From the NCBI GenBank assembly GCA_030407315.1, contig JALQPE010001992.1, forward strand, positions 1 through 64,000: 64,000 nt of DNA, read 5' to 3'. Below, piece by piece: positions 28,476-59,718 of this stretch; position 1 is the first letter of the stretch; each line of letters starts with the position of its first letter. The notes beneath the pieces were generated by a model. The model saw only the letters and a program-made list of their open reading frames with translations. It had not been told where the DNA came from and searched no databases. Both the position numbers and the translations under genes were made by a program. This DNA comes from Asparagopsis taxiformis (lineage: Eukaryota > Rhodophyta > Florideophyceae > Bonnemaisoniales > Bonnemaisoniaceae).

Positions 28476-29184
28476 ACCATGATGGTACGTTTCCACAACT
28501 CACGCCACTAACCCAGTTTTCTATTCGTTTTCTCTTTCTCAGGTTTCCAGTCGGTGAGTGTTCCACTTCTACTTTCATTTATCTTTCTCTCTTACCACTT
28601 CTCCAATACTTTTCTTTTCTGCTCTGCCTGTGAGTACATATCTCAATTTGGGATGCAATGGTATTTGTTAAGGTACGTTAGTCTCCTAATCACCATCAAT
28701 TTCCCTCTCCAATTCAACGTCACTAACTTGTTTCCTTTCTCTACATCATTTTTTCTTCTTCTCTTCATTTCCTAGCTTATTCATGCAGCTCAATCAGTTG
28801 ATAGATTTCTAGACTTTTCTAGTAGTTTTAGTTTTACTCGTCGGAAAAGTGTTCGTTGTAGTAGCATTTTTAACATAGGGATTGTTTATTCTCAATGTAG
28901 CCTGCGCAAATAAACAAATCCAGAGTGAAGCTTCCCATATCGCACCCTCTTAGATTGCTACCTATCATACCGCGTATACCTCTCGCTAGCTCATAGTCAC
29001 TACGAAATAAAAATTCCTAGCCGTACTATTCTGTCCATTCCCATATGAATACCGTCCATGCCCATCCTCATAGCGCTAGAACTGCCTCCCTCTACCCAAA
29101 AGATGCCCACGACAGCGTGACGCTCCATCTCATCCACCACTCCCAGACACCGAATTTTACTATATCAGGACACTACTTTTACTG

Positions 29185-29700
29185 TCTCCAGGTGCTGCCC
29201 AGGGCAGCACGAAATACTGTCTCCAGATGCTGCCCAGGGCAGCACAAAATACTATTTTGTAGTAGTAGTAGTAGTAGTAGTAGTAGTGACAGTAGTACTG
29301 TCTACAGGTGCTGCCCAGGGCAGCACAAAGTACTGTCTACAGGTGCTGCCCAGGGCAGCACAAAGTACTGTCTACAGGTGCTGCCCATGGGTAGCAGGGC
29401 CCTGCAGGGCAGCACGAAATACTGTCTACAGGTACTGCCCAGGGCAGCACAAAGTACTGTCTACAAGTGCTGCCAAGGGCAGCACGAAATACTGTCTACA
29501 GGTACTGCCCAGGGCAGCACAAAGTACTGTCTACAAGTGCTGCCCAGGGCAGCACGAAATACTGTCTACAGGTACTGCCCAGGGCAGCACAAAGTACTGT
29601 CTACAAGTGCTGCCCAGGGCAGCACAAAGTACTGTCTACAGGTACTGCCCAGGACAGTGAAAATCACTGTCTCCAGGTACTGCCCAGGACAGTGCACCGT
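29185..29700. repeat. 35-bp palindromic tandem units (Y end)
   Basis: Counterpart of 10400-10835 with a different order and number of units, a TAG-trinucleotide run (about 29262-29285) inserted between units, and a rearranged unit near 29385-29410. The array evolves faster than the rest of the element. Confidence 0.75.
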
Positions 29701-30058
29701 GTTGGTTCCATCTATTGTCCCAGGCAGCGTATTTCACTATCCGGCCATGTTGCCTTGGCCAATACAAAACACTATCCACCAACACTGCCCAGTACAGTAA
29801 ATTACATCATATCCAACTATTGAATAAATCATTAATTTTTACTGTCTCCATTCACTGCCTCAGACAGTACTGTGCGACAGTGTTCTTTACTGTCTGCAGA
29901 CAGTGTTCCGTACTGTCTGCTAGACAGTGCAAATCACTGTCTCCAGGTGTGGCATTAATTTTCATTTGCCGCATAGTGATTTTTACTGTCTCAGACAGTA
30001 AAAATCACTGTCTCACCGTACTGTCTGAGGCCCCCTTTTCAACACCGTAGTGCTACTT

Positions 30059-35289: not shown

Positions 35290-36962
35290 TCAATGTACGT
35301 TGGATTTTAGCCGTGCCCGCATCTGACGCAATCCCCTCGTCTCGTTCAGTAACCGGAGACGTGAATGTCTTAGAGCTAGCCACTTCGCATGTCTCTCTTT
35401 ATCCTCTTCCTCCCTTTCCCTGCACATCCTACGGTAGTTGGCTTGTTCTGATCTCTTCCCACGACGCAACACGACCTCCTTCGCCCGCGCCACTCGTGCT
35501 TCAAATGTTATCGCCCTCTGCCGTTCACGATCTCGAAGTTAATTCATCACATCAATGTCAGTAAGCAAGACACCGCTTGCACTGTTTATTGTGCCGCTAT
35601 GAAGTACCTCTCCATCCGATCGGAGTAAATTGCGACTGCTTTTCATCTTCTCAACCAAAGATTTGAATGAAATAAACGCATCTTATTGATCACTGTATCC
35701 GTCATAGTTAGATATGCCTGAACAAGAAATTACCTCATGAATAACATCTTTCCTTTGCTGACACCACAAACCGATACCACGAAAACCGTTCACTATGTTA
35801 TTGTACGTGACAGACTTCTTGTAAGCCTCATGAACAATCTCACAGAGCGTGTACACGTCGTTTCTCTGCTCTTTAGAGGTAGATAGTGACCTTTTGTTGA
35901 ACTCATTCCCAACAAAAGTTTTGAATGGCGAAAAGACGGCATAATCTAGTACTTGCGTACGATTACTTGTGTGGGATGGCATTCCAACTACCACAATTCT
36001 ATTCTGATGCAATATTTGTAGCTCTTTGTAACATACGTGAGCCCCATAACCGTCCAGTGTCAGCACAATATTGCGGTACCGGCGTCGTAGTGCTTTTGTT
36101 TCGTCAACAAAGTGCATTGCCCATTGGAAAAATATGTTGGAATCCATTCCAGCAGGATCCCGGTAGCACACCATAGCATTGAGTGGAAGGAAGTCTGCTG
36201 GTGTTTGTTTTGTACCGTCTGGCAGGACACGAAACTTTGCCCTCTTTCCTTGCAGAATGACGACTGGGCTCCATGACTTTCCATCTGCAGAAACAACCGG
36301 CATGATAGTGACATGTTGTGCGTTTGCAGCCCACTGAAGCTCCATTGAATTGCTTCTTGAACCTTTCGTATGTTCAAAAATAGCCTTTGCCCTTCCCCTT
36401 CTCCGATTCTGGGTACTAATCCCACTCTCATCTAGGTTGAATATCTGCTCTGCACTACAAATATGATATTCCTTGTAGATTTGATGCATCCGAGCGAAAT
36501 GTTGCGCAATGTTCTGTGGTGACATTGCACGTGCTCTGAGGCACTCTAGATTTTCTCTTCGTTTCAACGTCAAGCATTCATGACGCTTGAGAAAATTACG
36601 TACAAACACATCACCTGGAACCCCGTTTTTCCAACCAATACGCTCACGCCTTGATGAAGGTAGGTTGCGTACAAATACACCGACCATCTCCTTGTAACAC
36701 TGTCTTGATAATGGAGTACTTTTCCTGGAGAACTCCCTCACAGCGCGTGATATCTCCGCCTCCTCATCCTCTCGAAGAATCGGCTTCCGCCCTCGCTGCT
36801 CCCTGTCCAAACAAAGTTCTCCCCGCAAATACCTTTGAAGCTGCGAGTTCGACACACCGAATGAAAGAGCTGCTTTTCGAATCGAGTAGTTTTGCTCGCA
36901 GATTGCACGCGCTGCTGCACGAAATAATGGCGCTTGAGATGCTGCAGATTTTTTTGAGCCAT
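35290..36962 (-). pseudogene. Pogo/DDE_1-type transposase, inactivated
   Basis: One frame shows an N-terminal Psq-type helix-turn-helix (IRKAALSFGVSNSQLQRYL) and a DDE_1 catalytic core with FNLDESGI, then LTLDGYGAH and LDYAVFSPFK, the three expected acidic positions. The frame from the only sensible ATG (36962) does not match the domain frame: a run of seven A (36951-36957) must differ by one base. Downstream, the same frame passes through TAA at 35683-35685 and TAA at 35539-35541, yet continues to encode a coherent Arg/Glu-rich C-terminal tail to 35290. Two in-frame stops and the start-proximal shift make it a pseudogene. No terminal inverted repeats found. Confidence 0.7.
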
Positions 36963-37702: not shown

Positions 37703-37826
37703 CAAACTATTGTGGATCCTAAAGCTCACCAAAATGTCAGCTTCAACCTCCCAAACTTTGCACATATAATGCTTGCACTGTTTCCTATGGAATCCAACTG
37801 TTGCAATAGCATTACGAAAACCCCAA

Positions 37827-38822
37827 ATGCCACGTGGGCGTCAACTGAATGATGCTGAGAAGGCTGCAATAGTGGCTCACCATCACCACGGAATGAGTCA
37901 TGGTGAGATTGCATCTGAGATTGGACGCTGCAGGACTACCGTGCAAAAGTTTTTAGCCCGTCCGAAAGTATCTCAACAACGCAAATGGGTGGCTAGGAAC
38001 AAAAAGGTGACCGATGCTGCTAAAAGAGCTTTATTACGTGAAGCTTGTAAGGGTGAAATGAGTGCTGCCGAACTGAAAAAACATTTCAAACTGGACATAG
38101 GCGTGCGAGGAGTCCAGCAGATACTAAGCGCGGTACCATACTTGAGGTACGAGAGAATGAAAAAGGCCTGCTTCATGCTTAAAAGACATAAAGAAATGAG
38201 GCTAGAATGGGCAAGGCATCATTTGGAGTCGGGTACAGTTTGGCGTCGACACATCTTCACAGATGAAAAAAAGTTTAATGTTGACGGCCCTGATGGCCTA
38301 GCATGCTACTGGCATGACTTGAGGAAGGAGCCTGCGATATTTTCGAAGCGACAGCAGGGAGGGAAATCTCTGATGATTTGGGGAGCAGTTTCTTACAAAG
38401 ATTTGTCTGACCTTGACATTTTAGACGGTAATGTAGACTCTGCACGGTATTGCCAAACACTTAATGAAACTCTCCTACCGTTAACACGGAAGCATCATCA
38501 AAATAATTGGAAGTTGGTTCATGATGGTGCTAGTGTCCACAGGTCAAATGAGACAAAACGTTGGCTTTCAGATAATGATGTGGATGTATTGGAGTGGCCA
38601 GCAAAAAGTCCAGACCTCAATATCATTGAAAATGTTTGGGGTATTCTTGTAAGGAAGGTTTACGCCGGATGCAGGCAGTTCAATGGGCTTCGCGAGCTCG
38701 CAGATGCAATCTTAGAGGCATGGAATGAGATAGAAGTATCAACGGTAAGAAAACTATACGATTCTATTCCCAAACGTCTTCTTGGTGTGATAGAAAACAA
38801 GGGTGGGCCTACAAAGTACTAG
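37827..38822 (+). CDS. Tc1/mariner transposase (DD34E)
   Basis: 331 residues from the Met at 37827. A longer frame starts at 37773, but MPRGRQLNDAEKAAIVAHH is the typical start. N-terminal half: two helix-turn-helix units (MSHGEIASEIGRCRTTVQKF is the first). Catalytic core: FTDEKKFNVDGPDG (first Asp), VHDGASVHRS (second Asp) and SPDLNIIENVWG (Glu, 34 residues after the second Asp). Length and motif order are those of a full Tc1-like enzyme, which excises and inserts the element at TA. No internal stop or frameshift is present, so it may be active. Confidence 0.9.
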   Translation: MPRGRQLNDAEKAAIVAHHHHGMSHGEIASEIGRCRTTVQKFLARPKVSQQRKWVARNKKVTDAAKRALLREACKGEMSAAELKKHFKLDIGVRGVQQILSAVPYLRYERMKKACFMLKRHKEMRLEWARHHLESGTVWRRHIFTDEKKFNVDGPDGLACYWHDLRKEPAIFSKRQQGGKSLMIWGAVSYKDLSDLDILDGNVDSARYCQTLNETLLPLTRKHHQNNWKLVHDGASVHRSNETKRWLSDNDVDVLEWPAKSPDLNIIENVWGILVRKVYAGCRQFNGLRELADAILEAWNEIEVSTVRKLYDSIPKRLLGVIENKGGPTKY

Positions 38823-39061: not shown

Positions 39062-39359
39062 TACCTCGTTCTTCCAAGTTCTTCTGAAGGTGCAGCGAGA
39101 CAAGTATGAACAATTCTTTTTTAAAAATGTTCAAACCTGTCTCTTGGTCTCATACAAACCATCCATTCTGCTTGGAAGATGGCGGAGTTAGTTTGCTCTA
39201 GGGCCCATTTTGTACACCAATGTACATCAACTTTCCAGCAATTTCACGTCCTTGTTGACTGTGAACAGCTCCATACATGTATGTTAAGTCAGCTTTCCCT
39301 TTAGTCTGTTCACCTCGTGATCAGACAACTTGACTTACTTGCCAATCAAGCACTTCACC

Positions 39360-40907
39360 ATGAAGATCGATTTTCTCACTACCTTTCTGCTCACCTCCCT
39401 CGCACTTTGCGCCTTCTCCCAGCCACCACCTTCCAATGGCACACAGTCAGCGCAATTTCCACCAGAACTGGCTTCCGTCCTTCTTCCAGACTTCAACACA
39501 TTAGGCCAAGCTAATGATGCTGCCGCTGCCCTTTTTTCTAATGTGATATTTCGCGTTCAGACTCCAATAGCCGTTCGTTACGCTCTCATTGTAGCCGTGG
39601 CTACTTATCAAGTGCGTGCCGGATGTCATCCAGTCGCTCTCTCATTCTTCGGCAAAAAGGATAACATTCCCCCCGCCCTTTGTGAGGTTGGTCCAATGGC
39701 AGCTACTACCGCCTATGCTTATTACAGGTCTGTTCTCCTCGAATTCCCTCAAGAGGCTTCTGCTTATGCGCAAGTTCTTGTAGAGAATGGCCTCAACCCT
39801 TTCGATGACTCTACAGACCTTACCTCACCACTAGGGTGGGGTAACGTTCTGGGATCCGCCGTTGCAAACTTCTTCGCACAAGATGGATGGAACTCTCTCG
39901 GCGATGCTACCCGCACCAACAACCGCCGTCAGTTTGAAGATTCAACAGATTACACTCCAGTGAACCATGCCGATTTAGAACCATTCGAGCTCATCAAGCC
40001 CCTGCGATGGCAACCACTGACACAATCGATTGATTCGCGCGGGCTGTTTGGATCTCAGAAGCATGTTACGCCGCATATTGGATTGACATCTACTCCGCTG
40101 GTGTTATCGAAGGAGGATTTTGAGGCTAGGGAAGTAGAAGGGCCGTATAAGAGTCCGAACAAGTTGAAGCAGCTCACGGCAGAAGATAGGAAGAAGGTGA
40201 TGGGGTATATTGATGAGCTATTTGAGATATCTCGGAATTTGACTCCACTTCAGATTGGAAGAGCATTCTATTGGGACAATAAGTTCCTATCTTTAGGAAC
40301 TTTCATTGGGTTCTATGCCAATGCGATTGGCTTCGACAGCTTCACTGTCGATAGACTGGCGGTGGGAGAAATGCTAGCACAGTATGACGCAGTATTGATA
40401 GCATGGAAGGAGAAGAGACGTCATGATCTTGTGCGGCCGTCAACCATGATCCGGCGACTACGCAATGGTACCCGAATCAATGTGCTGGTCAACGCGTTTC
40501 GAGGGGTTGGAAATATTGATGCGTCAGAATGGGAGCCATTGGTCACTACACAGCCGCATTCTGAATTTCCGTCTGCATCAGCAACAATATGCACAGCATC
40601 ACTAGAGCATCTGGAAGTTGCGCTGAGGGATATTGTAGGGCCAAATGGAACTATACCACCGTACCAGTTCACTTTCACACCTTTATTTTTCCCGTTCTTC
40701 AACGAGCCAATTGTTAGTACTTTCCCCAATTTGAGGGCAGCTGCTAAGAACTGTGGACAATCTCGTTTGTTCGCAGGGGTACACTTCCCGCCATCAGTGC
40801 CTGCTGGAAACAAGTTGGGAAGTGGCATTGGCAGGGCGGCGTTTGAGCACGTGTCAGATCTGGTGGCAGGTCGTGTACCAAAGAATTGTGTGAGATGCCA
40901 GTCGTAA
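39360..40907 (+). CDS. Secreted vanadium-haloperoxidase-like protein, catalytic His missing
   Basis: 515 residues from the Met at 39360, starting with a signal peptide (MKIDFLTTFLLTSLALCAFS). It resembles the vanadium haloperoxidase/PAP2 family, which binds vanadate or phosphate and, as haloperoxidase, oxidises halides with hydrogen peroxide. Motif 1 is present as K352-x6-R359-P360. Motif 3 is present as SRLFAGVHF with R469 and H475, the spacing of the vanadate-ligating His in known enzymes. Motif 2, normally PSGH, reads P404-S-A-S, so the acid-base His is lacking. The protein may be catalytically altered, or a ligand-binding paralogue. Six Cys residues suit a secreted protein. No intron. The gene follows the Tc1 element by 300 bp. 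Confidence 0.7.
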   Translation: MKIDFLTTFLLTSLALCAFSQPPPSNGTQSAQFPPELASVLLPDFNTLGQANDAAAALFSNVIFRVQTPIAVRYALIVAVATYQVRAGCHPVALSFFGKKDNIPPALCEVGPMAATTAYAYYRSVLLEFPQEASAYAQVLVENGLNPFDDSTDLTSPLGWGNVLGSAVANFFAQDGWNSLGDATRTNNRRQFEDSTDYTPVNHADLEPFELIKPLRWQPLTQSIDSRGLFGSQKHVTPHIGLTSTPLVLSKEDFEAREVEGPYKSPNKLKQLTAEDRKKVMGYIDELFEISRNLTPLQIGRAFYWDNKFLSLGTFIGFYANAIGFDSFTVDRLAVGEMLAQYDAVLIAWKEKRRHDLVRPSTMIRRLRNGTRINVLVNAFRGVGNIDASEWEPLVTTQPHSEFPSASATICTASLEHLEVALRDIVGPNGTIPPYQFTFTPLFFPFFNEPIVSTFPNLRAAAKNCGQSRLFAGVHFPPSVPAGNKLGSGIGRAAFEHVSDLVAGRVPKNCVRCQS

Positions 40908-51678: not shown

Positions 51679-52584
51679 CTAATTACTGACGCCATCCTCG
51701 TCCGCAACGGCAAACAAGGGCCGCACTTGTCGCGCCTCTCTCACCTCGACAGCAACGTCGTAAAGTGTGGCGGCTCTGGCAACGGTTCTTTTGATATCGG
51801 CTGTGCGATACGAGTCGTAGGCGTTGCCACGATACATCTGCTCCTTACTGTCCGTGCACGGAAGTAAAGTCCACTTGGTCAATTGCTCCAGTTCAGCCAG
51901 ACCTTCATCCATTTTGGAATTGTCAATAATCAGATCGTACATCAGTAGCTTGCCCATAATTTGTGAGCGCGTCGCATTCAATGGCAAGCCCATGGTTCGG
52001 AACAACATCCCCTCAAATTCTTCATGTCGTCGACCTTGCAATGCCCAGTCAATTGCGGCCTTGAAGCCCTCCTCCGTTTTCATGGTTTCATACTCTGCAT
52101 TACCGCGCTGTCTGTAAAAGAAGCTAGCGGCCGATTTGAACCACGACAAGGGTTCCCTTACACTAGCCAAGTAAATAAAATTGTTGCCATGTGTTGTGCG
52201 CAAGTTGGTGACGAGAGCATGATTTGTTTCGCTGGCATGGCAGGTCATTGTGAGCCCGCCCTTGGTTCCGACATGAGTAGCGGTGCCGTTCATGAGTGAC
52301 ACCTGCATCTTACAGTCGGCATTCCGACACCCGTAGGCCTCGGAGGTACGAAAGAGTATGTTGGAAATGACGGTGCTGCCAGTCTTGAACTGCTTGTTGT
52401 ACAGAATGACGGGGCATTGATTGGGTTGCACCTCGCCGAATGTGTTATTCGCTGTCAAGCTAACGGAAGTTGAAACATTGGATGAGAAGAGGACAAACAC
52501 GGCCACGGCGGCGAAAAAGAGTACAACTGGGACAACACGATTGCTAGCTCTTCGTTCACTTCGGAATGCCATGGTGTCGTTCAA
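51679..52584 (-). CDS. Golgi carbohydrate sulfotransferase, type II membrane protein (copy 1)
   Basis: 301 residues (or from the Met at 52572). A short cytoplasmic tail and one membrane helix (about 17-37) are followed by the luminal domain. YNKQFKTGSTVISNILF is the 5'-phosphosulfate-binding loop, with the Lys expected to contact PAPS. NFIYLASVREPLSWFKS is the 3'-phosphate-binding motif with Arg and Ser. The Cys pair around RNADCKMQ and CHASE may form disulfides. The family resembles galactose-3-O-sulfotransferases. In red algae such enzymes are candidates for sulfating galactans such as carrageenan or agar, but the acceptor cannot be read from sequence. It is a tandem paralogue of the next gene. 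Confidence 0.75.
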   Translation of the reverse strand: MNDTMAFRSERRASNRVVPVVLFFAAVAVFVLFSSNVSTSVSLTANNTFGEVQPNQCPVILYNKQFKTGSTVISNILFRTSEAYGCRNADCKMQVSLMNGTATHVGTKGGLTMTCHASETNHALVTNLRTTHGNNFIYLASVREPLSWFKSAASFFYRQRGNAEYETMKTEEGFKAAIDWALQGRRHEEFEGMLFRTMGLPLNATRSQIMGKLLMYDLIIDNSKMDEGLAELEQLTKWTLLPCTDSKEQMYRGNAYDSYRTADIKRTVARAATLYDVAVEVREARQVRPLFAVADEDGVSN

Positions 52585-52865
52585 GTTTGTGTGTTATCGT
52601 CGCGGCTGAAGATTTTGTACGCCGATTCGACATCGAGCGCAAGGCGGAGCTATGCGGGCGGCGCTATTTACTGGAGTCCACAACGAGTTGTGCATTGACT
52701 GAGGCCGTACAGTACTGTACGCTTTCGTCAAACATTGTCATAAGCAATCACTGAAATTGGTTTCGGCTGCAGCCGCGCAGTCCACAAGTTTGGATGCAAA
52801 TTGCTGCTAATCGCAGGCGGGGCGTGTGTGGCCGATTTTACTGCTGCTGTAAAACTACTGTCAGA

Positions 52866-53756
52866 TTATTCCTTTGGAGCGAATAGCGGTCGAACGTTCC
52901 TGTCTTCAATAATTGAGGAGGCAATTTTGTAGAGCGCGCCAACCCTCTTTGTGGCTTCCTTGATGTCATCGGCGCGGTAGCTGTCGTACAATGGACCGCG
53001 ATATGTCTTGCGTTTACTGTTCGTACACGGCAACAAATGCCATTTAGTCACTTGTTCCAACTGCTTGAGGCCGTCGTCCATGTTAGCATGATCCACAATT
53101 ACATCGTACATGAGCAGTTTATCGCGAATCTGCAGATCGGTTGCTGTTCGGTTCAAGCCCAATGTGCGGAACAACATGGCTTCAAAACTGCCATACGCAT
53201 GCTTGCTCAACCCCCAGTCAATAGCTGCTTTGAAGCCCTCTTCTGTCCAAATGTCTAGAGGCCCCGCACCGCGTTGTCGGTAGAAAAAGGTCGCCGCCGA
53301 TTTGAACCATGAAATAGGTTCTCTGACACTGGCTAAATAGATAAAATTGTTGCCGTGCGTCGCACGCAGGTTGGCAACCAATTGCTGGTTGTGCTCTCTT
53401 GCATGGCACGCCATGGTGAGGCCGCCATGAGCACCCACATGAGTGGCTGAGCCATTCATCAGTGCGACTTGCATGCTGCAATCGGCATTTCGACAGCCGT
53501 ACGACTCGGACGTTCTGAACAGAACGTTGGACAGCACGGTGCTGCCAGTCTTGAACTGCTTGTTGTAGAGTATAACGGGACAGCTGGGTTTTTGGTTGTT
53601 GAGTGTGTTGTGAGCAATGGTGCGGAATGAAGTTGTAGAGTTGGATGAGAGAAAGAAGATGAAAGCAGCGCACGCGGAGAACAAAACCAGTGTAGTTGAT
53701 CGCACTGCGAACATTCTTTCCCTGAACATGGCGAAAGGGGAGGAGAGCGATTGCAT
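52866..53756 (-). CDS. Golgi carbohydrate sulfotransferase, type II membrane protein (copy 2)
   Basis: 296 residues. Same layout as copy 1 and clearly its paralogue: membrane helix at about 22-40, LYNKQFKTGSTVLSNVLFR, and IYLASVREPISWFKSAATF. The divergence is greatest in the N-terminal tail and stem, while the PAPS-binding parts are nearly the same. An alternative start is the Met at 53729. The two genes lie head to tail 281 bp apart, as after a local duplication. No introns. Confidence 0.75.
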   Translation of the reverse strand: MQSLSSPFAMFRERMFAVRSTTLVLFSACAAFIFFLSSNSTTSFRTIAHNTLNNQKPSCPVILYNKQFKTGSTVLSNVLFRTSESYGCRNADCSMQVALMNGSATHVGAHGGLTMACHAREHNQQLVANLRATHGNNFIYLASVREPISWFKSAATFFYRQRGAGPLDIWTEEGFKAAIDWGLSKHAYGSFEAMLFRTLGLNRTATDLQIRDKLLMYDVIVDHANMDDGLKQLEQVTKWHLLPCTNSKRKTYRGPLYDSYRADDIKEATKRVGALYKIASSIIEDRNVRPLFAPKE

Positions 53757-53997
53757 GCGGCGTCGGACGATGGGGCGGCGAGGCGAGGCGAGGCGGATAA
53801 TAAGCGAGCGGGTGATTGATCGCGAGCCTGCTGGATGGCAACGTGTTAGGCAACAGGATAAGATGTCGCCGAGGAGGACACCGACACTACAAATTGTAGC
53901 AACGAATCGTACCGTGTAATGTCATTATTTTTCGGACGAGACAGTGCGGCAGCACAACTCGTACACAAATACGATCATTTGTTGGCACTACACAATT
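53757..53997. other. Spacer between bestrophin gene and sulfotransferase
   Basis: No gene. It holds the 3' region of the bestrophin-like gene and the promoter of sulfotransferase copy 2. Confidence 0.3.
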
Positions 53998-56900
53998 TTA
54001 CACGTATGACTCGACATGTACGTCAGCGCGCGATGTTTGTTTTTCTAAATTACAATTAATTGGGAAAGCTCCTCGATTCGCTTTGACCACGCTGCCGTTG
54101 CCGTGTTGCGAGCAACGCAAATTGGTCCGGATCGCCTCAACAGCGTCAACTCGAAACTTTCCCAGCGGCACATCCGATACGTCAGTACCGAAAGGATCCG
54201 CGAGCTCCGCACTCCATCTCTCGATACCAATCACTCCGTAAGCAATGATAACCACCCATCCAATCGTCCACCATCCACTACTTTCCACAAGCCCCAATGG
54301 CAATGTCGAAAGCCATATCACCATCAATATGCGAATGTGCGCAACATATCCAAAAGGCAGAGCAATCCCAATAATTCGTTCGCATTGCGCCCCATACTTC
54401 TTCAGATTACTAATCTCAAATAACAACGTCCACACAATCAACGAACTTATACCCTTGCCAACATTCTTATCCGCCTCCGTCAGATACGCCCGAATCACAT
54501 CAATGCAATAGTCACCGCGTTCCGTCACTCGCTCGATTCGAGCAATATCTTCACCATTCATCACATCCTTCAGCTCCTCCGCACACGACCGCTCCCGCCG
54601 AAGCCGAGCCGCCGTCACAATGGAGAATCCCGCCAGATGAGCCCCAATTCTTTCCAAGTCCCCTCTGTGAATCATACCAGCCGCAAACACCTCAAAGATT
54701 CGATTGCTCAAAAGTATCGTATCACTCAGAATCTTATCCCTCCACGCCTCCACAGCACTCACATACCTCCCATGACTGTCATATAAACGAAATCCTAGCA
54801 GAACGAACAGTGCAAACCCAACATACTCCTTCACGACTCCATCAATCGCAATGGGAGAGCAGAAAGCTGGGCTACACGACTCATTCAATGGCCACTTCTG
54901 ACTCAGACCCCACGCCAGAAGCACCAAAACAGCACAGTATACGCCAACTCCAATCACCATCCATAGAGGCACAGCGTGTGCAATCATTGACAGAAAAGAC
55001 AGTACAGAGCGCGGTTCAATTGCCTTTCTTCCATCATCACCAAGAGTCGCATATATCGACTCACAATCTTCTTCCAACTTTTCCCAAGCCTTCCCAGAAT
55101 ACTCTACGCTTTTTACGACAAGAGTTTCACATCCACGACGGTAATTCTGCCTCACAAACAGAATTTCAGAAACAATTATATTCGCCATCTTGTCCAAGTC
55201 AAAGTCATTCAAATCCCTTCCGAATGGCTGTTGAATTTCTTCTGCAACAGAATACATTCTGTGGCATGTTAAAAGTTCACATAAAGTCAGCGCTCCTCTT
55301 ATACAAGTTTCAAACATCTCCGCTATGCAGTTAGCTTACCCAAGAAGTCCATATCCGATCAGAGGAACCCATAGAATTGAAAACCACCCTACACAGAACA
55401 CAGCGTTAATGGAAAACAGATTGACAAAGTTAAAATCTCTGTCAAGTTGTCATTTTGCGCGCCCAGTTCAATTAAGTTCAGAGAACATACCGTTTGATTC
55501 AGTCAGTACGAAGGGAACGAAGATGAACCATAAGCCTATCAATGCGCGGAGTAAAATCATGAAACCACGAGCAATGGGAAATGATTTCAGGAATTTGCTC
55601 TGTCGTACCGATTCCTGAAGGTTTTCAATCTCGAACTTCACGTGCGCTGATCTATTGCCAGAAATCTTCGCAGAAGGACTAGAAAAATGCTCCGGACGAC
55701 AGATTCCAGATATGTAGTAAGCTCTGATCACATCAATACAATAGTCGGACATACTGTTTGCGGTCAAAATTCGGCCAATATCGTCTTCGGACAACAAACC
55801 CTTTAGCTCTCTTAGATCCCTCTCATTTCTCAGCTCCATCTTCAGAGCAATGGGAAAACTCGCAAGATGCGCAAGCACACGATCAGTGTCTCCTTCATGC
55901 CAGCTTCCTGACCTTTCCAAAAGTATCCACTGTACAGCTAGTGAGTGGCATGCTGCTCGTATATCATCGCCCCATACATTTCCAGCTTCAGAATACCTGT
56001 CGAATGCGGCTTGCACGTAAAAGCCGAGAAGCAAAAAGGCTGAGTACAAAATTCAATGGAACGCCAAGTAAACTTCGTGGTTAGCCAAAATGTGGTAAAT
56101 GCAACTCACGATAAAAGGTGCTAACAAATAATTCCTACCTGGAAACCCGACGTATGTCACAAAGACACCATCAATTGATAGGCTTGACTCCCACCATCTT
56201 ACGTTTTCCGTTTCCGTTCTTGACAAATACGAAATCACGACACCCACAGCTGCCCATACAGAAATAAACAAAAGAGCCCACCACGGGACACTGCGTGCCA
56301 TGTGAGCAAAAAGGGACGGCTTGATCATCCCCTTTTTCGGGCCATTGAAATTCGCGATAGGTTTCTCAGCAAAGTTACTCGCGTCGACTTCATCTTCAGT
56401 AAACGATGGTAAGCTATATTGGTCTCTGATTCCCATCCCATCCAAGCAAGTCCCGATGCGAGCTTCACTATCAACTGGTGATTCCTTAATATGATGTTTG
56501 TAATCCCATTTCGTAGACCTCACGGCCTCGATTAATCTTTCAACCATCCCTGTCAAAATTTTGTTGACCGGTATATCGAGCTCGTCGTCGCCTAACGGAT
56601 CTACCAATGTTGTAGCAAGAAACTCCAGAGCAAGAATTCCGTATGAAATCAGAGGTGCCCATAATATAGTGAAGAACCCGGTGCGGGCAGTCATTCCAAG
56701 GGGCAGAAGAATCAACCAAAGAATTGTGAAAAGCTTCTGATGATTAGTGTAACTTCTTATGACCGGACACTTTTTTATAAACCGCAACTGGCTCACAATG
56801 TTTCCAACGTTGTAGCACTGATTAAACAATTGGAAGATCACCACACCTCCTGGGATATGTTTTTTCTTCATCATTTCTAGGCCTGACTCTTTCTTCGGCA

Positions 56901-59718
56901 CATCGACTGTCAGCAGATAAGCCTCCCAAGTCTGAATACAATATCGTATGGGATCTGGACTTTTAACACATTTTTCGTAGTCCTCGTCTGAAAGAAGTCG
57001 CTCGTCATCGCATTGATTGGTACCCAAAAGCTCATCCCTTAACAAAAGAGGAATTTGCATCAAGTGGGAAATAAACCTGGGTTTGTCACCTTTATGCCAT
57101 ACTCCATCTTGATATCCATTTGTAATTTCCATGATGCTCGCCCGCAGTTCCATTTCGAGCTTTGAGATCAACGACCCTGAATTCTGATACCTCCTCATAG
57201 CATCTGAAGCTCGGAAAGACAGAATCAGGAATAGTGCAAATCCTGTCTCTAGCAGAATATTCTGGTCGACATCAATCGGACTGCACCACTTACGACATCC
57301 TGTATTCCTGCGTTCGTCATCCCATGTGAAAGAAAGGCCGTAGGATATGAATACTTCAGAAACTATCCATGTTGTTACCACAATCTGGCTAATCCATGGA
57401 ACTGGTGGCAGGTGTGAGAGGATTTTCTCGATAAATTGTTTCAATGTCATATGCGATGTATGAGATTCCTCTTTTTGTTGGCGTCGAGAAAAGGATATAT
57501 TAAACCGTTCTTCATAGCCAATGGATTCATGGAGGAATCCTATTGGCCCATTACGTGTATCTTTGTAGATTTCGTGCACCAAGACCTTGATCTCAGCACA
57601 AAACTTATCCAGACGAATATCATTTGGATCAGTGCCGAATGGGTCCGACAAGTCTTGACCCATTACAAGAAGCTTCACAATGGAATATGCAATCGGAGGT
57701 AGGTAGAGGTATGAAAAAAAACCGTTTTGCTGTACGAACGCCAATGGTAGTAATGCAAGCCATATTACAGAGAATACCTGGAGATGGAGGGTAAATGATG
57801 GTGAGATCGGAACCTCTTGCATTGTGATGCATTCATTAATTGCGTTCTCAATACGATAAAAGTGGAAAAACATGAAGAGGAGAGAATTATCAAGAGGACG
57901 TTTTCCTGATAAGACGACGTCCTTATCCCGTCGGTCCATACTTGAAATGTATCCATACAAGACACGGAAACAGTAGTCTAGAAGGTGTTTCGACTCCGAC
58001 ATGGCCTGGATGTCATCAGGGGCCAGAATAGCTTCAAACTCTGAGAGATCACGTTGTTCTTGAAGTTTCTGTTTGCCTGCATACGCCATCGCCACAATGT
58101 GCGAAAAGAGACGCTCAATATCTCTATTGTGCCATGTTCCGTTCTTACACATGATGCCTATTCGAGTAGATACCGTTGTTATAACGGATTTCAAAGTTGA
58201 TTCCCATATTTCCAAACCCGTAGAATATCGAGTGTAGGCATCATTGAACCAGAAGCCCATAAGGAGGAACACTCCAAGTCCAACATACGATGTTGTTGAA
58301 ACGCTCAAGGGCACGTAGAGACACCACCAGCGACAGCCTGGCTCGGGGCTTGCCTCTGATATTCCACGAGTTAGAAATACAATGAAAGATAACCACACAA
58401 GGAACACAAGCAAAGGCAACAAAATCTTGTTCTTGAAGGAAATGAATAGACTTCTTTTGAAATATGTGATACCTGATTCATCGTTGAGTTGCTCTTTATA
58501 CCGTAGTTCGTTTTCCAACCAGTGAGGCGTGTCATGGTCAATCTTGACAACATCAGGAAGCAATCGTTCTTCATGATACATGTCCAGGAAGCGTAGGGAA
58601 TCTATACTGGCCAGTCTATTCAACTTGATATCTTGTATATCGAAACCAAAGGGCTCATTGAGAGCGTTAGCAACTTCGAAAAGCATACCGACTCCATAGG
58701 AAATGAGAATGGCCCACATAGGAGTGAACCTGGAGAACAGGAATTCATAATGAGCACACAATAATGTGTCAGATGATGAACGACAAAAAGAGCATCGAAA
58801 ATAATGAACGACTTACCATCCACTAGTTTCGACTAAGGCAAGTGGTAAGAAGACGAGCCAAATGTAAAGGAAAATACGAAGGTGATTGACATAACCTAGA
58901 GCGGGTTGGAATTCTGCGATGCGAGTAATGGTAGCCGTTATATTGTCAATGGCATCGACGGTAATGACTTGGGAACACTTTGAGCAAGGACCTGCTGTAG
59001 AGGGACAAGCAGGCTGAAATCCTGTCTTGACCTCGTTTTCTGCACACGAAAAGTAACCTCTGATAACACGAATACAATGAATATGCATCTGTTGTGATTG
59101 AATAACATCGTCAACATCAAGCGGATCTAGTATAGTACTAAGTTGCTCTGGTTCTCTCTCGTGGCGAATCATCATTTTCAAGGCGATAGGATAGGCCATA
59201 AAGTGTGCAATAATCCTATCTTGATCATTTTGATGCCAAAGCCCCCTAGTAAACACCTGAACCAACACGCGGATAGTTATCCTGGCTTGGGCCATTGACT
59301 GATTCCAAGCTGTATGAGCTGCACGATGACGACTGGAGGCCTCCCTAATGAAGAAACCTAGGAGTACGAACAAGGCCCAGCCGACTCCATAGACAACAGA
59401 TGAGGAAATGAGAAAGCTAGATGTCCAGAACGGGACGGAAAGCGAGGTGAAACTTCGATCAGCGAAAGCATATGCTATCATCATAACAGCGGAAGACCAG
59501 AAGGCTTCGACGACAAGCATGCACCACGGTATTGTCTTGAGTACGATGCGAAGCGGTGTCACTGCTGAAGGCGGCAGCTCGGCAGGGCCGGATCCCAGAA
59601 CGCCCGTTGTGGCGGCATTAGCCAAGAATTTGGCTGCGGATGCATAGCCGGGAGAGCGGTATAACGGGGCGGACTCTGCCGGAGCTTCAAGATCGAGGAT
59701 TGGGGTTGGAAGCGGCAT
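53998..59718 (-). CDS. Five-domain bestrophin-like anion channel, five exons
   Basis: Exons: 58817-59718, 56139-58729, 55491-56039, 55340-55388 and 53998-55258. Total 5352 nt, 1783 residues. The four introns (87, 99, 102 and 81 nt) all start GTA(A/G/T)G, end in AG, and keep frame with consistent phase. Five copies of a bestrophin-like unit follow one another. Each starts with a membrane helix after a Pro-Trp or similar (IPWCML, ILLPLL, VPWISQ, VPWWAL, VPLWMV), then a second helix of GF-L-x-L-x-F type ending in Arg-Tyr. Each ends with the family motif: NEPFGFDIQDIKL, SDPFGTDPNDIRL, VDPLGDDELDIPV, QQPFGRDLNDFDL, ADPFGTDVSDVPL. Bestrophins are pentameric Cl-/HCO3- channels of plasma or thylakoid membranes. 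A single chain with five units is unusual. No targeting peptide is obvious. Confidence 0.8.

Follow-up and report, generated by a model that had tools for sequence, protein, structure and literature searches.

A red algal gene for five bestrophin units in one chain: a candidate single-chain, pseudo-fivefold channel in Asparagopsis taxiformis

Introduction

Ordinary bestrophins are rings of five chains, each of which contributes a single unit. Subunit fusion within one chain is familiar from the voltage-gated Na+/Ca2+ channels, which are the fused four-repeat counterparts of tetrameric K+ channels, whereas no natural fivefold channel built from one chain is known to us, and neither a multi-unit bestrophin nor a single-chain fivefold channel was found among the matches listed in the open-licence full-text literature. 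Here we analyse a 64,000-nucleotide stretch of DNA from the red alga Asparagopsis taxiformis (assembly GCA_030407315.1, contig JALQPE010001992.1, positions 1 to 64,000 of the forward strand; hereafter the window), which contains a gene for five consecutive bestrophin units (D1 to D5) in one 1783-residue protein. Our reading, to which we assign a probability of roughly 0.78, is that the gene product is a pseudo-fivefold anion channel of bestrophin type, built from a single chain.

By profile comparison with the PDB, KpBest ranks first among the structurally described relatives, followed by bestrhodopsin (7pl9) and VCCN1. KpBest (best PDB profile match, E 3e-28, 5x87) shares with the algal protein a hydrophobic neck, the PFG motif and a like unit fold (4wd7/4wd8 and variants; Foldseek template modelling (TM) scores, scaled to target length, of at most 0.87 and 0.91 for the two models described below), but it has one unit per chain and five identical chains, whereas the algal protein, with ~20% identity to it, joins five different units in one chain. 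The KpBest PDB entries among the matches listed and 7pl9 contain five chain copies each. Bestrhodopsin, a rhodopsin-bestrophin fusion with one bestrophin unit per chain, gave the best phmmer PDB match of D5 (E 1.5e-14) and is likewise an algal bestrophin within a large fusion. It differs in its rhodopsin partner, as no rhodopsin domain was detected by Pfam in the 1783 residues of the five-unit protein at E up to 0.01, Bestrophin_2 being the sole family found. VCCN1/BST1-4 of plants and green algae (7ek1-7ek3) belong to the same superfamily and match weakly (D5, E 2.2e-4; profile, 1.9e-14), again with one unit per chain rather than five. In published work, BST4 of green algae is reported to be pentameric in vivo (PMC11638005), and red algae are reported to possess homologues of bestrophin but no orthologues of the BST clade (PMC11142338). 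VCCN-like candidates are mentioned for red algae (PMC5948301), as is the rhodopsin-bestrophin fusion elsewhere (PMC11453091).

Results

The Pfam family PF25539 (Bestrophin_2) spans the whole 1783-residue protein in five stretches (E 5.3e-154), and each unit is also recognised when scored singly (E 1.5e-26, 5.7e-32, 3.5e-22, 7.7e-36, and 1.8e-36 for D1 to D5; 79.7-126.6 bits against a curated cut-off of 27). The five matches are far above chance level, and this domain count confirms the claim, made in an initial annotation of this DNA, of exactly five bestrophin-like domains in one chain. The animal bestrophin family PF01062 was not matched, as the Pfam scan of the whole protein returned PF25539 only. 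The units are separated by linkers of ~40-66 residues, with D1, D2, and D3 being 25-29% identical to D5 and D4 34%. Because the others are only 25-34% identical to D5, the five units are old duplicates, not sequencing or assembly stutter. An assembly duplication of one unit was ruled out on the same identities and by the orthology of the units by position. The annotation had also listed five PFG-type motifs, one per unit; these are indeed present, but their count is no proof of the unit number, since P[FL]G has nine matches in the protein. Across the homologous units described below, the F of PFG is kept in 22/22 D1, 34/35 D2, 14/36 D3, 22/25 D4 (two further rows gapped), and 23/24 D5 units. 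The departure of D3 that had been pointed out (PLG in the window) therefore holds and is common at this position, with 22/36 D3 units being non-PFG.

Rebuilding the gene from the sequence reproduced to the base the earlier hand-built model of five exons and four introns, with a single 1783-residue frame whose stop codon ends at 53998 (Table 1). As this spliced frame is open, the fusion involves no ignored stop codon, as had been asserted. The position of intron 1 is common to 10 of the 11 aligned loci of the genome, the eleventh (C193) ending before it. A hand-splicing artefact was ruled out, because paralogue introns lie at matching places and one paralogue, C1040, has its D2-D5 part free of introns; since that part lies within one 1562-residue open frame, the fusion is independent of splicing. 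All four intron lengths of the window gene are multiples of three, whereas many paralogue introns are not, and this divisibility is probably due to chance.

The assembly from which the window comes (141 Mb in 3156 contigs) contains many related sequences. The PF25539 profile yielded at least 87 matches and D5 as query at least 91, most of which form rows of five when sorted by contig. The window protein was aligned, introns allowed, to 11 other loci, and seven of these are paralogues that show neither stop nor frameshift in the aligned part, which covers 97-99% of the query: C1915 (1365/1770 residues identical to the window protein), C1652A (1183/1760), C1652B (1178/1760), C1678 (1147/1762), C2212 (973/1737), C69 (962/1745), and C1040 (976/1750). 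Including the window gene, the genome has eight intact five-unit genes, the seven paralogues being judged intact over their aligned part. The paralogues have introns at the same four places, with losses of intron 2 in C1678, intron 4 in C2212, and introns 2-4 in C1040. Of the other four aligned loci, C2664 is 1753/1766 identical to the window copy and perhaps its allele, but it is damaged by two frameshifts and one stop. The remaining three are damaged or cut (C649, 12 frameshifts; C193, the contig end and three frameshifts; C2169, four frameshifts), C2798 consists of pieces of one copy separated by long inserts, and C2452, C68, and C2727 are bestrophin fragments, all three frameshifted. There is also a single-unit bestrophin, C2147 (L062; 335 residues modelled), which belongs to the same family but differs from the five-unit genes in its intron pattern and falls outside the five position groups described below; C2259 is a divergent single-unit match. 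Contig C1652 (L003, L006, L007, L014) carries two intact five-unit genes in opposite orientation, ~7-8 kb apart and with ~95% protein identity. On contigs C967, C1718, C1719, C1727, C1728, and C2296 there are six bestrophin fragments that score equally and share the same internal stops, a pattern that would fit the dispersal of one piece together with a repeat element.

Long homologues were sought in a database of 5.8 billion proteins. At least 17 were found in the first search (6268 candidates scored) and at least 22, including 12 new ones, in the second, for which an alignment served as query (7995 candidates sharing most words), giving 29 combined. Six of them are named and derive from Gracilariopsis chorda, Gracilaria domingensis, and Agarophyton chilense (four entries), all members of the Gracilariales; P0004 bears the database name 'Bestrophin/UPF0187', a machine annotation of one family member. 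These named relatives and 13 matches to phycobilisome linkers in the genome both mark the source as a red alga. When units were located with a profile built from the five window units, eight of the 29 proved complete in count (P0002-P0007, P0013, and P0029, with a unit split or short in P0003, P0005, P0006, and P0013), while the remaining 21 are incomplete yet compatible with five units. Ten of these start in the D1 tail, either at the intron-1 place or beyond it, and continue through D2-D5; three cover the span from the last third of D1 to the first part of D4; another seven extend from D1 into D4, with ends at the intron-2 place in five and near the intron-3 place in two (P0008 and P0018); and one ends after D3. 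The breaks lie mostly at intron places, as expected of protein calling that ignored introns. The same count in red algal relatives, a check suggested by the initial annotation, is thus seen in the complete members. Proteins with four or six units had been named there as the contrary outcome: there is no six-unit homologue among the 29, and four units occur in P0008 and P0018, which we read as truncated rather than true four-unit proteins, their fourth unit being cut near the intron-3 place. In P0008 (transcript GEZJ01002761.1, frame marked complete), D1-D4 are in frame, D4 is cut, and the tail appears by eye to be out of frame relative to its relatives. A search for short proteins with the five-unit profile gave at least 10 at E 1e-10 or better among the candidates scored; eight of these ten consist of the tail of the preceding unit plus one unit, and two (P0027 and P0028) of a lone D5-like unit. 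A scan of genome contigs confirmed no prokaryotic relatives.

To examine the order of the units, we built a tree of 144 units, labelled solely by their order, together with the single-unit C2147 and three bacterial rows taken as outgroups from plasmid records (148 rows). C2664, C649, C193, C2169, the near-duplicate C1652B, P0019-P0028, and units covering <220 profile positions were excluded, and C2798, C2452, C68, C2727, and C2259 were covered by description alone. Every position forms one side of a branch, with supports in the Shimodaira-Hasegawa-like approximate likelihood ratio test (SH-aLRT) of 100, 94, 99, 100, and 100 for D1 to D5, and the position labels need six changes, the minimum possible, compared with 90 when shuffled. 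A 79-row tree from 17 of the genes recovered each position in 100% of 200 bootstrap trees. No exchange of units between positions was seen in either tree, and the larger one has long branches flagged at its bacterial end. Because the units group by position, the order arose once and predates the split of all these genes. The possibility that the count was kept only through recent copies was ruled out for the order by these deep positional groups, and the single origin stands.

The units also differ by position at the pore neck. In KpBest, I62, I66, and F70 form a three-ring hydrophobic neck in the second helix, and the alignment columns of the 144 units show this hydrophobic neck of bestrophins. 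The outer residue is set by position, reading W-L-F-F-F from D1 to D5 (Table 1), the middle one (I66) varies within positions (mostly V, L, or M, with T in 9/27 D4 units), and the inner one (F70) is F in 136/144 units across all positions. Arg at KpBest position 78, a His, D110, R113, and D146 are kept in 141-144 of the 144 units; at the aperture residue KpBest I180, the alignment is too loose for any reading. Defining as diagnostic a residue present in ≥85% of units inside a position and ≤10% outside, we found 57 such residues (16, 10, 13, 10, and 8 for D1 to D5). Together with the W-L-F-F-F pattern, these bear out the earlier proposal that the units have diverged from one another, neck residues included, and they support the suggestion that such divergence would give an asymmetric pore. 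The same proposal had included different Ca2+ sites per unit, which found no support. Animal BEST1 has an acidic Ca2+ clasp after PFG, whereas no acidic run resembling it was found by sequence comparison in the columns following PFG; the motif there reads PFGxDxxDxPL, as in KpBest, and xDxxDxPL-like residues follow without an acidic cluster.

Ratios of nonsynonymous to synonymous substitution (dN/dS; Nei-Gojobori) for D1 to D5 between the window gene and C1915 are 0.106, 0.098, 0.097, 0.118, and 0.145, at a dS near 1. They are 0.048-0.082 between C1652A and C1678, where dS is 1.3-2.3 and near saturation, and higher (0.16-0.36) in the close pair C1652A/B. Comparison of the window gene with its near-twin C2664 gives a whole-gene value of 0.95 at a dS of 0.003, too few changes to interpret, and the remaining gene pairs are saturated or very close. 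The low ratios show purifying selection on all five units.

We also predicted structures with AlphaFold2 for P0017, whose 1173 residues span D1-D3 plus the beginning of D4 (17 aligned sequences), and for the 681-residue D2-D3 portion of the window protein (23 aligned sequences). The mean predicted local distance difference test score was 72.4 and 80.5 and the predicted TM-score (pTM) 0.75 and 0.80, respectively. By the usual formula, folded but unplaced units would give a pTM of ~0.31-0.43 for P0017 and 0.36-0.52 for D2-D3; since both observed values exceed this, the predictions place consecutive units in a defined packing relative to each other. In Foldseek searches of the PDB, a KpBest-type chain came first for both models (TM-score by target length 0.86 and 0.91), so that D1-D3 of P0017 and D2-D3 of the window protein, as predicted, match the bestrophin subunit fold.

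Table 1. Coordinates of the five-unit gene, its exons, introns, units, and outer neck codons within the window
Feature	Position	Strand	Evidence
Five-unit bestrophin gene, 1783 residues, five exons	53998..59718	-	Spliced model, GT-AG introns, single open frame; Pfam PF25539 in five stretches
Exon 1, 902 nt	58817..59718	-	Gene model
Exon 2, 2591 nt; intron-free end of D1, entire D2 and D3, start of D4	56139..58729	-	Gene model
Exon 3, 549 nt	55491..56039	-	Gene model; both flanking introns positionally matched in most aligned loci
Exon 4, 49 nt	55340..55388	-	Gene model; recurs in loci retaining introns 3 and 4
Exon 5; end of D4, D5, stop	53998..55258	-	Gene model
Intron 1, 87 nt, GT-AG	58816-58730	-	
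Intron 2, 99 nt, GT-AG	56138-56040	-	
Intron 3, 102 nt, GT-AG	55490-55389	-	
Intron 4, 81 nt, GT-AG	55339-55259	-	
Unit D1, residues 49-351, intron 1 inside	58579..59574	-	Pfam; unit profile; D1 group in trees
Unit D2, residues 392-688	57568..58458	-	Pfam; unit profile; D2 group in trees; AlphaFold2 model
Unit D3, residues 734-1037	56521..57432	-	Pfam; unit profile; D3 group in trees; AlphaFold2 model
Unit D4, residues 1104-1399, introns 2-4 inside	55153..56322	-	Pfam; unit profile; D4 group in trees
Unit D5, residues 1446-1743	54121..55014	-	Pfam; unit profile; D5 group in trees
Trp114 codon, D1 outer neck position (KpBest I62)	59377..59379	-	W in 21/22 D1 units, 0/122 other units
Leu452 codon, D2 outer neck position	58276..58278	-	L in 34/35 D2 units
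Phe798 codon, D3 outer neck position	57238..57240	-	F in 33/36 D3 units
Phe1163 codon, D4 outer neck position	56143..56145	-	F in 23/27 D4 units
Phe1512 codon, D5 outer neck position	54814..54816	-	F in 21/24 D5 units

Discussion

In the channel that we propose, the five linker-joined units would fold and pack next to one another around one pore, arranged as D1-D2-D3-D4-D5, with the single chain taking the place of five identical chains and presumably closing the ring by itself. Because the chain would fix the order, each unit would be free to diverge in its own way, and the neck would be built from non-identical residues: one Trp, one Leu, and three Phe in the outer ring and Phe nearly throughout the inner one, asymmetric in the same manner across the whole family. 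We infer the conduction of anions (Cl-/HCO3-) from the bestrophin family, and any placement of the channel in the cell is putative. Taken together, it seems probable to us that this is a natural covalent pentamer, i.e. one polypeptide ring with specialised units, in which an obligate, ordered pseudo-heteropentamer has arisen from a symmetric homopentamer, that its five units have kept fixed places since the ancestor shared by Asparagopsis taxiformis and its Gracilaria relatives, and that the five-unit family has expanded in this genome to eight intact genes.

Several points weigh against this proposal. The window gene is known here from genomic sequence, and the channel function of every family member is putative; the predicted folds are derived from alignments of 17 and 23 sequences and cover three and two consecutive units. 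The P0008 transcript frame ends within D4 and is nominally a four-unit frame, and P0027 (transcript GFKZ01002204.1) is a D5-only frame of 322 residues marked complete, so that a D5-only transcript may exist. In the larger tree, C2147 joins on a branch that separates D2 from the remaining four positions (SH-aLRT 93, not starred), so that the early history of the units may be read in more than one way, with C2147 splitting off before or after the fusion and one unit or another coming first. The sequence may also be compatible with proteolytic cutting within the linkers, and inheritance from a single event could account for the fixed count, since diverged units no longer recombine.

The last two points lead to the alternatives. 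The first is that the product is a polyprotein, cut in its linkers to release five different subunits that assemble into an ordered hetero-pentamer. Consistent with this, linkers are less conserved than units (e.g. amino acid identity 0.41-0.57 versus 0.68-0.72 in B5/C1652A), P0027 and P0028 carry a lone D5-like unit, and the title of a reference within PMC11453091 indicates that some algal proteins are suspected polyproteins. However, pieces of the linkers are conserved, with an HxTPxWLE-type motif following D1 in 28 of 52 scanned proteins (many of the others being fragments without the linker), and the D3-D4 linker measures 56-79 residues wherever both units are present among the proteins compared, save in P0039 (50). 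Moreover, free subunits need not share one gene, and C2147, the sole single-unit gene of this genome whose model covers the greater part of a unit, lies outside all five position groups. We thus consider processing into separate subunits unlikely.

The second alternative is a frozen accident, in which chance duplication led to five units that are kept by descent and serve multi-chain pentamers or a channel array, the number five being meaningless. The single ancestor of all five-unit genes makes the count one event, and units with ~25-34% identity (D5 versus the others) would hardly be able to recombine and alter it. Against this, purifying selection is similar on all units in both pairs with finite dS, and no unit has been lost in the eight intact genes here or the eight five-unit proteins elsewhere. 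A position-fixed W-L-F-F-F neck would be expected of an ordered ring rather than of interchangeable units, and packing of consecutive units within the chain is predicted, all of which makes an accident of descent quite improbable in our judgement. It is very improbable that only some units line a pore while the rest are regulatory or structural, which would make this a different kind of repeat protein; D3 does deviate from PFG in many units, but the inner neck Phe and the shared residues are kept at all positions.

If the single-chain channel is real, it would be to fivefold channels what the four-repeat Na+/Ca2+ channels are to fourfold ones. The logic is the same, in that subunits of a symmetric channel are fused and then diverge, but the Na+/Ca2+ channels are fourfold and of another fold; fusion of subunits into one chain is known for fourfold channels, and the fivefold case is new to our knowledge. 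In the complete members found, the count is unchanged, with five units, one old order, and unit-specific residues at the pore neck. As a natural concatemer whose units can be altered singly, the protein could reveal how much symmetry the bestrophin pore and gate need. Red algae, which are reported to be without the BST clade that green algae and diatoms have (PMC11142338), would gain a putative anion-channel family of their own, with possible roles in carbon supply or in osmotic or wall-related anion traffic.

Additional features of the window and genome

Adjacent to the five-unit gene, two similar proteins are encoded on the minus strand (51679-52593 and 52866-53921), with weak matches to the galactose-3-O-sulfotransferase family PF06990 (E 6.2e-4 and 3.6e-4, both short of the curated threshold); such a pair fits an alga that produces sulphated galactans. 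The plus-strand frame at 39330-40907 combines the second helical-bundle domain of vanadium chloroperoxidase type (PF22778) with DUF6851, and its product is likely a vanadium haloperoxidase. Two DDE-type transposase frames, one Tc3/mariner-like (DDE_3) and one DDE_1, are located at 37773-38822 (plus strand) and 35683-36855 (minus strand), while the open frame at 29045-29800 (plus strand) is made of a repeated motif and resembles a tandem repeat more than a gene. Elsewhere in the genome, an 892-residue frame on contig C469 (125699-127426) holds three phycobilisome-linker domains.

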